From Candidatus Methanoplasma glyptotermitis (GTDB lineage: Archaea > Thermoplasmatota > Thermoplasmata > Methanomassiliicoccales > Methanomethylophilaceae), in NCBI GenBank assembly GCA_031267895.1, contig JAIRYF010000034.1, positions 1 through 33,478 on the forward strand: DNA of 33,478 nucleotides, in the 5' to 3' direction. A program made the position numbers and the translations under genes. Every line of letters begins with the position of its first letter. The stretch's first letter is position 1. Under the pieces are notes generated by a model, which was not told where the DNA came from, made no database searches, and saw only the letters and a program-made list of their open reading frames with translations. Positions 1-33,478 of this stretch are shown here, piece by piece.

Positions 1-1800
1 ACCATTTTTGTAAACCTGGGCGGAGGAGGCGTATGCAACAGAAGTATATTCACCATGACCGGCGGTATAATCGGGGGTACGGAATCAGATCATGCGAATC
101 TATCATTCAACGGCGGAGGAGTGCACAACAGCGGTAAGGACAGTCTGTTTACGATGTCCGGCAATGCCGTGATTTCCGGAAATAAAGCGGAATATCACGC
201 CGGAGGCGTGTTCAACTATGCCACTTACTTCTCGACACATGCCACATTTGAAATGTCCGGCAATGCTGCGATCACAGGAAACACTTCGGGAGACTACGCC
301 GGAGGCGTGTGGAACGGCGACAGCCTGTTTACCATGAACGGCGGAGTGATCAGCGGCAACACGGCAACAAACTACGGCGGAGGTATTGTAAATCTCGACA
401 GCTCCGAGTTTACAATGAACGGCGGAGAAGTTTCCGGCAACAGCACAGGAATATACGGCGGAGGAATATTCAACTTATTCGGTTACGAGTTTACAATAAA
501 TGACGGTAAGATCAGTGACAACACCGCCGCTCGGGGCGGAGGTGTGGCCAACTACGAAGGTATATTCACGATGACCGGCGGAGAGATCAGCGGCAACAAG
601 GCAACCGGTGCCAATGCCAACGGATCCGGAGGCGGAATATATACGACGGATTTCTCTCAGCTTAAGGTGGCCGCGGGTGTAGTATTTTCGGGAAATACTG
701 CTCCGACTCTGAGAATACAAGATATAGCGGGTGATGCGGATATCGATGGGAACGGAGTGGCTGATGTTACTGATTATGCGAAAATAGGAAAGGTTGTATT
801 ATCAGAATTTATTCTCAGTGCTCTTTCCGGCAAGAATGCTCCGGCATACAACAACTATGATATCAACTATCCTGACCCCAACGGCGTTTACGCTGTGTAT
901 GTTGATATGGATCTCGACGGGGCGGGATCCGTTACCGCGAAGAACACTTCCGGCGAAACGGTATACGGCACTCTTACGAAGAATGGACACGTTCTTGTTC
1001 CGATTTCCGCAGCATCGGTAACATTCTCGGCGGATGCCGGGGAAGGTTACGTATTCTTGAAGTTCGTGATTGACGGGACGGACTTTGAAAATGATTCTGC
1101 TGTCTCCGTTACGGGGAATATGAATGTGACTGCGCAGTTCGTATCGGAATCTTCTCCGGCACCTCCCGTTTCCGGCAGCTATACGATTGTATCATCCGCA
1201 GGAGACGGTGCATCCATATCTCCTGTCGGAAACATCTCTGTCTCGGCGGGCGGGAATATGACGTTCGCGTTCTCGGCAAGATCCGGATACGAAATATCTG
1301 CGGTATACGCCGACGGTTCTTCCGTATCCTCAGAGGCATTAGCCTCCGGCACGTATACGTTCTATAACGTACAAAGCAACCACACCATCGAAGCAACAGG
1401 AACACCTTCTTCCGCACCTCCAGATTCTGGATCAGAAGGAGACGGTTTGGAATCCGGGGAAAGAACCACAGGGGGAGCCGTTCTGAATCTGGTATTTGCA
1501 CTGATAGCAATAGCTGCAGGTATTGTTGCCGTAGTTGCGGGGAGAAACCGTTCCGAAAAGAAAGACAGCAACGAAAGAAAATCAAAGAGATTCATTCCGA
1601 AGATTGTATCGCTTATACTGGGAACAGTATCTGTTATTGTATTCTTAGTAACTGGAGATATGAGTCTTACTGCTGCCGTTGCGGATAACTGGACTGTTCT
1701 TATGTTCATACTGGTGATTGCAACGCTTATCTCTGCTTTCGTCAGTTTCAGGTACAGGGAGGAAGGAGAGAACCCCGAAGACGGGAATGCAGATACGTAA
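1..1800 (+). CDS. adhesin-like beta-helix repeat surface protein, 5' end outside window
   Basis: The frame is open from the first base, so the N-terminus is missing; the first internal ATG is at 55. Residues 1 to about 225 are repeats of the form GGGV-N-(x)-FTMNGG-ISGN, the pattern of parallel beta-helix adhesins and polymorphic membrane proteins. A short acidic stretch (DGNGVADVTDY) follows, then two InlB-like beta repeats (about 300-380 and 385-465). The C-terminus is unusual for such proteins: after a Ser/Gly linker it has three hydrophobic segments (about 493-514, 532-551, 564-583) separated by a Lys/Arg-rich loop, so it is anchored by a small membrane domain rather than one helix. Stop is TAA, followed by a hairpin terminator. 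It probably sits on the cell surface; no binding partner can be deduced. Confidence 0.85.
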   Translation, partial: TIFVNLGGGGVCNRSIFTMTGGIIGGTESDHANLSFNGGGVHNSGKDSLFTMSGNAVISGNKAEYHAGGVFNYATYFSTHATFEMSGNAAITGNTSGDYAGGVWNGDSLFTMNGGVISGNTATNYGGGIVNLDSSEFTMNGGEVSGNSTGIYGGGIFNLFGYEFTINDGKISDNTAARGGGVANYEGIFTMTGGEISGNKATGANANGSGGGIYTTDFSQLKVAAGVVFSGNTAPTLRIQDIAGDADIDGNGVADVTDYAKIGKVVLSEFILSALSGKNAPAYNNYDINYPDPNGVYAVYVDMDLDGAGSVTAKNTSGETVYGTLTKNGHVLVPISAASVTFSADAGEGYVFLKFVIDGTDFENDSAVSVTGNMNVTAQFVSESSPAPPVSGSYTIVSSAGDGASISPVGNISVSAGGNMTFAFSARSGYEISAVYADGSSVSSEALASGTYTFYNVQSNHTIEATGTPSSAPPDSGSEGDGLESGERTTGGAVLNLVFALIAIAAGIVAVVAGRNRSEKKDSNERKSKRFIPKIVSLILGTVSVIVFLVTGDMSLTAAVADNWTVLMFILVIATLISAFVSFRYREEGENPEDGNADT

Positions 1801-28697: not shown

Positions 28698-30534
28698 TCA
28701 GTTCTTCCCGCGCATGAGAACGGTGTGTCCTATTGCAGCAGCTGCTATACAGGCAAGAAACGCTCCGACTGCGAGAACGGGAACCCAATAGGATACACCG
28801 TCGGCGGAGTCTCCGCCCGAAATGCTTCTGTTCGCCAAATCGCTGACGCTGACGCCGCTGTTCCCCGAACCGTTCCGTGTGCCGCTGCCGGATACTCCTC
28901 CGGAAATGTCTCCGCTGCCTGCGGAGACTGTTACGGTTACGTTAAGGTCAGAGCGTATATCCGGTATCCTGTACAATCCGTCGGTCTGAAGAATGATTTC
29001 CGTGTTTCCTGAAACAGCGTAGGGAGAAACGGAATATCCTTCAGATGCCTGCACTCTGAACGCAAGACTTTCTCCCTCCGTAACGGTTAACGGCGAAGAT
29101 ATCGGAGAACCGTTTGCTTCGTATACCGTATAGTAAGAACCGGAACTGAATGCAACGGAGTACGTATTGATATCAAGCGTGAGATCCGCTCCCGATACGC
29201 TTGCCGTCAGCGGAAGCAGGGATACGGAAGATACGCCTGTTTTATGATACCCCGTTTTGGATGCCGTTATTATACCGGATGTGCCTGCGGGCAGATCTCC
29301 TATTGAATAACCGCCGTCAGATGCAGTTACTGCGGAGTATGTTATTCCGGAATCCGATTCAAACTTCACCGAAGCAGAAGAAACAGGTCTGCCGTCCGGT
29401 GAGGTCAGGGTTCCGAATACCGAACAGGAAACCAAATCCCATGCCGATGCGCTGTCCCATATGTATTCGGCGTCGCTGTAATGCAGTTCTCTTCCGCTGG
29501 CTGCGGCCATGTCGTCCGGAGTGCATCCTGCACACGAGGAACTGATGTCCGGGAGGATCAGACACTTTGCGGTATCGGCTGCCGCTATACCGGGCAGTCT
29601 CCAGTTCCTGTTGTCTGCCGCGCCTGCCCTGAAATACGTATCTATGATTCCGCCCGTGCCTGTATAACTGCCGGTGACGGTTACGGTTGTCACCTTGGTA
29701 TTATAGAATGACTCATTGTTGGCCGTAACGCTATCGGGTACCGTCACGGATGTCAGGTTGCTGCAACCGAAGAATGTGCGGTATTCGATGACTGTCACAC
29801 CGCTGGGTATGACAATAGATGTCAGGGCAGAGCAGTACTGAAATGCAGAATATCCGATGGATGTCACGCTTTCAGGTATCTCAACGGATGTCAGGGCTGT
29901 GCAGCCTAAGAATGCCGAGGCGACTATGGATGTCACACCGCTGGGTATGACGACGGATGTCAGGGCAGAGCAGTACTGAAATGCAGAATATCCAATGGAT
30001 GTCACGCCGCTGGGTATGACGACGGATGTCAACTTGACACAATATTCAAATGCACCGATACCGACAGATGTCACACCGCTGGGTATGACGACGGATACTA
30101 GGTTGCTGCAACTGCGGAATGCATAGTCATTGATGGCTGTAACACTGCTGGGTAGGACAACGGATGTCAGTTCGCTACAGGCATTGAATGCATATTTGCC
30201 GATGGATGTCACGCTGTAGACCGTTCCGCCGTCGGACACGGTCGCGGGTATTTCGAGATTGGCAGATATGCTGGATATCCATCCGACCGCAGATGCTTCC
30301 GTACCGGAGGTCTGATAGTGGACATTGCTGATGGTCAGGTTCCCGGTCGAACCTCCGTCCGCATCAGATTCGTTCGGTTCAGAGTATGTTACAAAGAATG
30401 CCGCTGCGAGAAACAGAGCAGCGGCAAACAATACCGTTATGTTTAAACGGCTGGGGAAATTATAATTCCCCCCCCCCCTGGCCGTGTGTTACACCCAGGG
30501 AAGGGATAATTCCTTTTAGAGGTTTCGTATTCAT
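28698..30534 (-). CDS. BspA-like leucine-rich-repeat surface protein A, poly-G phase-variable, OFF in this sequence
   Basis: The main frame (28698 to 30467) codes for a BspA/LRR_5 protein. Translation from ATG 30534 (MNTKPLKGIIPSLGVTHGQ; Shine-Dalgarno AAGGAG upstream) runs into an 11-G tract (30478-30468) and stops at TAA five codons later; with 10 G it enters the main frame as GGGNYNFPSRLN followed by the signal peptide core TVLFAAALFLAAAFFVTYSE. The mature part has about seven 23-residue LRR_5 repeats (VVIPSGVTSIGYSAFQYCSA type), a carboxypeptidase-regulatory-like beta domain, an InlB-like part and one C-terminal membrane helix with tail MRGKN. Paralogue of the gene at 33308. A sequencing error in the tract is the alternative. 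Confidence 0.85.
29750..30160 (-). repeat. near-identical 69-base coding repeats in surface gene A
   Basis: The LRR_5 units are 69 bases long and very similar in DNA; for example a block beginning CAGGGCAGAGCAGTACTG occurs at 29823 and again at 29961, exactly two units (138 bases) apart, with over 30 identical bases. Such repeats can gain or lose units by recombination. Confidence 0.75.
30453..30478. repeat. poly-G/C tract with adjoining imperfect palindrome in gene A
   Basis: Eleven C on the plus strand (30468-30478), i.e. G11 in the coding strand, overlapping GGGGAAATTATAATTCCCC (30453-30471), a 19-base near-palindrome. The same arrangement, with 12 G and a perfect 20-base palindrome, occurs in gene B. 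Confidence 0.9.
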
Positions 30535-30539
30535 AAGTT

Positions 30540-30614
30540 TCACTCCTTATTATGGTAGCGTCGTAGTTACAATACGATGCGCATCTGCGTATCCGTGAAC
30601 TTGAATATATAATG
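30540..30614 (-). promoter_or_regulatory. promoter and ribosome site of surface gene A
   Basis: TTATATATTCAAG at about 30603-30614 (TATA) and AAGGAG at 30543-30548. The TATA context, a GATGCGCATCG-like block and AATAAGGAGTGAAAC are shared with gene B (33241-33307), so the two genes share promoter sequence as well as leader. Confidence 0.55.
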
Positions 30615-33240: not shown

Positions 33241-33307
33241 TTAATTATATATCCAAGCATGCGGGTGCGCATTGCATACCCGACAAAACAATAAGGAGTA
33301 AAACATC
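33241..33307 (+). promoter_or_regulatory. promoter and ribosome site of surface gene B
   Basis: TTATATAT at 33245-33252, AAGGAG at 33293-33298 and ATG 33308. It is similar in sequence and spacing to the promoter of gene A. Confidence 0.6.
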
Positions 33308-33478
33308 ATGAATATCAAACCTCTGAAAGGAATCGTTTATTCCTCTTCCGTTAATACTCCCCGCCCATACAGGGGGGGGGGGGAAATTATAATTTCCCCA
33401 GCCGTCTGAATGTAACTGTATTATTTGCTGCCGCTCTGTTTCTGGCAGCAGCATTCTTTGTAACGTATTCCGAACAAA
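33308..33478 (+). CDS. paralogous surface protein B, poly-G phase-variable, OFF in this sequence; 3' end outside window
   Basis: ATG 33308 gives MNIKPLKGIVYSSSVNTPRP and then a 12-G tract (33372-33383). As sequenced the frame continues to TGA within nine codons after the tract; with 10 (or 13) G it reads GGGNYNFPSRLN and then the signal core TVLFAAALFLAAAFFVTYSE, identical to gene A. Only the leader and signal are inside the window, so the mature domain is unknown, but a cell-surface protein is expected. Leader residues 10-21 differ fully from gene A while the flanks MNxKPLKGI and GGGNYNF are the same. Confidence 0.8.
33372..33399. repeat. poly-G tract with perfect 20-base palindrome in gene B
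   Basis: Twelve G (33372-33383) run into GGGGAAATTATAATTTCCCC (33380-33399), which is its own reverse complement. The palindrome is conserved in gene A except for one A, despite lying in coding sequence. Confidence 0.9.

Follow-up and report, generated by a model that had tools for sequence, protein, structure and literature searches.

The stretch analyzed here (the window, 33,478 nt) is contig 23 of a fragmented draft genome of 72 contigs and 1.717 Mb that is 97.85% complete and encodes McrA and a pyrrolysyl-tRNA synthetase (pylS). The best solved relative of the latter is 6jp2, the Methanomethylophilus alvus enzyme. The two markers point to a methanogen of the Methanomassiliicoccales, most probably of the family Methanomethylophilaceae. 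On the minus strand of the window, a TATA box, TTATATATT (30604-30612), lies about 70 nt upstream of an ATG at 30534-30532, and a Shine-Dalgarno motif, AAGGAG (30543-30548), ends 8 nt before it. The start codon and its 56-nt leader, MNTKPLKGIIPSLGVTHG(Q), occupy 30479-30534 and run directly into exactly 11 consecutive G (30468-30478). The tract is followed by a conserved segment, AATTATAATTTCCCC (30453-30467, encoding NYNFP), which opens a body of 589 codons plus stop (28698-30467). This body matches the BspA-type leucine-rich repeats (LRR) of PF13306 (E = 1.4e-53) and also contains a carboxypeptidase-regulatory-like domain; the related solved structures are LRR proteins (e.g., 4fs7, 4gt6). 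Judged from sequence only, it has a hydrophobic core close to the N-terminus and a hydrophobic stretch at the C-terminus, and the product is a predicted surface protein.

With 11 G, the leader frame reads MNTKPLKGIIPSLGVTHGQGGGEL: TAA is the third codon past the last GGG and the product has 24 residues, so that the assembled allele is OFF. A tract of n = 1 mod 3 (10 or 13 G) fuses the frame of ATG 30534 to the 589-codon open reading frame 30467-28701. The run is therefore sited where a change in its length shifts the LRR gene in or out of frame. The sequence-only reading had described a good start at ATG 30534 with AAGGAG, 11 G between this start and a signal-peptide core, a stop within five codons of the tract at 11 G, and a whole LRR surface protein in frame at 10 G; each of these statements agrees with the anatomy given above. 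That reading did not include a second homologous locus of the window, nor the number of tracts across the genome. Use of ATG 30534 as the start is supported by the upstream TATA box, the Shine-Dalgarno motif and a leader frame that, across related loci of the genome, is constant relative to the body in 38 of 43 cases. An alternative start, TTG 30431, was rejected because the conserved TATA box, Shine-Dalgarno motif, ATG and leader are all upstream of the tract. Together with AATTATAATTTCCCC, the last part of the G run makes up a near-palindrome (30453-30471) that is found in most members of the family; it may merely reflect the NYNFP codons, or it may have an effect on slippage. The predicted mRNA fold around the tract, G run included, is more stable than that of shuffled sequences (z = -3.8).

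The window contains a second homologous locus on the plus strand, which is cut off by the contig end. Here the TATA box, TTATATAT (33245-33252), and Shine-Dalgarno motif, AAGGAG (33293-33298), precede a start codon and 64-nt leader, MNIKPLKGIVYSSSVNTPRPY (33308-33371), a tract of 12 G that is also OFF (33372-33383), and the beginning of the body (33384-33478). The 8-G word has nine matches in the window against a shuffle mean of 0.8, and no shuffle reached nine. Near the opposite contig end, a gene for a FILTED-domain surface protein (55-1797, plus strand; NF052597, E = 8e-19) has no G tract in the available sequence.

Both loci belong to one surface-gene family, represented by 45 tracts in the genome, that shares a common 5' cassette. 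The order is TATA box, Shine-Dalgarno motif, ATG, a leader of about 10-23 residues (mostly MNxKxxKG...), poly-G, NYNFPSRLN, hydrophobic core and LRR body. The element T[TA]TATA occurs at -85 to -50 in 38 of 43 loci, most members have a Shine-Dalgarno motif, and all 32 long bodies match PF13306. A single frame class, ON at n = 1 mod 3, accounts for 38 of the 43 scorable loci (the remainder being five single exceptions) and spans eight distinct leader-plus-offset lengths. Thirty-nine of these 43 loci are OFF and four are ON (p = 5e-4 against an expectation of one third), and 3 of the 45 family tracts have a length of 10 or 13, compared with 20 of the 52 tracts outside the family in this genome (Fisher p = 2.4e-4); both p-values are optimistic because the paralogues have common ancestry. 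Since length 10 is common outside the family, its depletion, with that of 13, points to selection through the reading frame and not to slippage bias alone. A near-identical leader, MNMKSSKGITSSPGVTHG, is found at three loci with 11, 11, and 10 G. The OFF genes are otherwise intact and constrained: 28 of the 45 bodies are open for at least 400 codons, and the median dN/dS is 0.32 for 11 pairs of OFF genes, in windows pre-filtered for similarity, which lowers dN. Across pairs from 32 loci, the identity of the cassette is uncorrelated with that of the body (r = -0.03; body alignments are noisy, at near 57% identity), which suggests that cassettes may be exchanged between loci or that bodies may recombine. 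One member (L060:1506-1530) is in frame with an interrupted run, 11 G and then AGGAATTAT, and shares its leader with an OFF locus (L083); it is possibly a locked-ON allele. A candidate case of one locus assembled twice with differing tract lengths (the start of contig C62 vs. C31) proved to involve only paralogues.

Genome-wide, there are 97 G-tracts of at least 9 G whose flanks were read (96 among the pattern matches listed), compared with about 8.4 expected from composition, and forward and reversed-pattern counts agree. They have 9-13 G, and about half lie near the starts of the surface-gene family. Runs of G/C in the 299 kb around the tracts are bimodal in length, with few at 7, 8, and 9 (4, 1, and 3) and a peak at 11-12 (18, 36, 35, and 5 at lengths 10, 11, 12, and 13), whereas A/T runs fall off smoothly with no second peak. 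In a 390-genome sample of the phylum, this genome has 75 tracts of at least 11 G and one other (G034) has 55; the others have at most 15, and 306 have none. The repeats are thus longer and more frequent than chance, as in slipped-strand phase-variable loci. About 35-40 tracts are without a clear coding flank by a crude codon-usage score, a weak measure, as neither flank of two tracts in restriction-modification genes (HsdS and methylase) scored as coding. Several tracts of 10-11 G outside clear genes (L034, L047, L049, L064) adjoin G+C-rich inverted repeats that are terminator-like (e.g., taccgccgca...tgcggcggta).

Several tracts interrupt genes of other classes. A Dam-type adenine methylase has out-of-frame halves on either side of its tract (L038, n = 11), and an HsdS protein has the tract between its two recognition domains, again with its halves out of frame (L040, n = 10). 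At the level of genes, a DNA methyltransferase and a specificity gene are therefore each disrupted by a repeat tract, as in a phasevarion. The methylase in the relative G048 has no orthologous poly-G tract, and that pair gives no difference in tract length. A ResIII helicase protein (L052, n = 12) and two Peripla_BP_2 proteins (L046, L079) are likewise split into out-of-frame halves, as is a gene of 424 + 230 codons divided by 13 G (L048:1865-3840, minus strand), which has no match in Pfam, NCBIfam, or PADLOC. A further LRR gene (L101) has 12 G and is in frame.

The cassette of the family was found in its own genome only, among 102 genomes of the taxonomic family searched (a 26-nt match in G026 is chance-like), so there is no orthologous locus to compare. 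A search by protein among genome contigs matched only bacterial LRR proteins, and a scan of viral contigs for the post-tract motif found none. Related arrangements do occur elsewhere in the order. In G043, of the same genus, Listeria-Bacteroides-repeat and LRR proteins have poly-G after the signal peptide, with the frame intact in some and broken in others, and a ResIII helicase carries an in-frame 11-G tract (L139). G033 and the single-contig genome G048 have one locus each where 11 G separate a signal peptide from a body that is in frame (L195, L198). In G255, which belongs to a different family of the order, the signal-peptide/poly-G/body arrangement occurs at four loci and is out of frame at each. 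An Acyl_transf_3 gene in G255 that is cut by two 11-G tracts (L201) resembles bacterial phase-variable acetyltransferases. Because these loci do not have the cassette described here, the design seems to have had more than one origin or to have undergone rebuilding. The tracts of G036 were considered as added support and set aside: many lie within a few bases of contig ends and look artefactual, probably as a result of two-color sequencing, a warning for poly-G counts in draft genomes. A search of 17 genomes of the genus, whose controls responded, detected neither MutS (PF00488) nor NucS (PF01939) in any of them. Their absence is permissive for slippage but cannot be a sufficient cause alone, because relatives equally without both have few tracts.

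Taken together, the locus is very probably a slipped-strand phase-variable surface gene that is switched by its poly-G run, and one of about 45 paralogues that share the cassette. Transcription would begin upstream of the leader and translation at ATG 30534, while replication slippage in living cells would alter the G count, presumably reversibly. At n = 10 or 13 the leader would be joined to the signal-peptide-like core and LRR body, and the protein could be expressed and displayed at the surface (ON); at 11 and 12 G the product would be truncated at about 24-33 residues (OFF). In most family members neither resting length, 11 or 12, gives the ON frame, so that ON alleles are in the minority; with about one tenth of the paralogues ON in the assembly, a cell would display few of the proteins at any one time. 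Tracts of this kind are also present in restriction-modification and transporter genes. The locus fits a contingency locus in both anatomy and gene class, and the contingency design proposed from the single locus extends to its paralogues and to the restriction-modification and transport genes.

Four other explanations were weighed, each of which is less likely than slipped-strand phase variation. In the first, the G run would cause programmed ribosomal frameshifting or slippage of RNA polymerase, so that some full-length protein is made at any DNA length, and the tract would tune the level of expression instead of acting as a switch. Long G runs can be slippery, the strong local RNA fold (z = -3.8) takes in the run, and most family genes would be OFF but for such a bypass. 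However, length modulo 3 would then be expected not to matter, and a bypass of the frame predicts no specific rarity of 10 and 13 in the family; this explanation is quite improbable. The second is an error of assembly or sequencing, such that the real lengths are in frame or the runs are two-color noise. Homopolymer lengths are error-prone, the genome is a fragmented draft, and the G036 tracts do gather at contig ends. The tracts of the present genome, in contrast, are internal and differ in length between flanks that are conserved on either side; forward and reversed-pattern counts are concordant, and similar loci occur in independent assemblies, including one of a single contig. Off-by-one errors would also not deplete 10 and 13 in one gene family alone. 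Together with the bimodal lengths, this makes an artefact unlikely, and indeed very improbable as an account of the locus.

The third explanation is decay of the surface-gene family, most copies of which would be pseudogenes, in a genome where G runs tend to grow without being of use. Such decay would be in keeping with the majority of OFF copies, the many tracts outside clear genes and the mismatch-repair proteins (MutS, NucS) that were not found. It is nevertheless highly improbable: the bodies are still open and constrained, the promoters, Shine-Dalgarno motifs and leader frame are kept with the tract as the sole break, and A/T runs are not inflated. Least probable of all is control at the RNA level by a structure or a small RNA acting on the G run, for which the hairpin around 30468-30478 and the action of RepG on a variable G repeat of Helicobacter pylori (PMC8295292) could be cited, but the tract is coding sequence downstream of the start codon, and it is precisely the ON-frame lengths that are rare.

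Slipped-strand phase variation at the focal gene may in turn be part of an OFF-biased, genome-wide archaeal contingency system. Such a system would comprise about 45 LRR surface genes under one exchangeable promoter-leader-polyG cassette, with resting lengths of 11-12 that are both OFF and few proteins displayed. Phase-variable restriction-modification, as an archaeal phasevarion, would be its other component, and the lineage has no detected MutS or NucS. This wider reading is favored only slightly. If true, the stochastic switching of surface proteins known from host-adapted bacteria would also operate in a gut-type methanogen and would bear on the encounters of such archaea with viruses, protozoa, partner bacteria, or a host's immune system. 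A further consequence would be that a large repertoire of surface proteins is easily overlooked where gene callers see only frameshifted fragments.

Poly-G on/off switching is well known in bacteria. In line with the expectation of few or no clear archaeal cases, searches of open-licence papers found no clear report of archaeal slipped-strand phase variation. A survey of prokaryotes that included 18 archaea sought homopolymeric tracts as on/off elements; only short poly-A/T was over-represented, and poly-G was not placed near 5' ends (PMC2831843). A 2025 review of phase variation is framed around bacteria and lists the distribution in archaea among the needs for further work (PMC11868660). BspA-type LRR and Listeria-Bacteroides-repeat proteins are reported adhesion factors of gut Methanomassiliicoccales, and that report gives 0-9 LRR proteins per genome and, in its searched text, makes no mention of phase variation (PMC7883539). 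The present family shares these domain families but has far more copies than the counts published there.

The classic contingency loci are those of Campylobacter: in C. upsaliensis, 209 poly G:C regions are known, of which 22 were seen to vary (PMC539331). As in Campylobacter and Helicobacter, poly-G tracts of about 8-13 are located inside the coding regions of surface and restriction-modification genes, there are many loci per genome, and a change of one base shifts the frame. The known phasevarions are bacterial (PMC13076061), and the present genome resembles them, at the level of genes, in having poly-G in hsdS, between the two recognition domains, and in a Dam-type methylase. Variation has been observed at the Campylobacter loci themselves (PMC539331), whereas switching here is deduced from one assembly. 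In contrast to the Campylobacter and Helicobacter systems, the host is an archaeon, about 45 of the loci form one LRR family with a common 5' cassette, and the resting lengths of 11-12 are OFF for most of its members.
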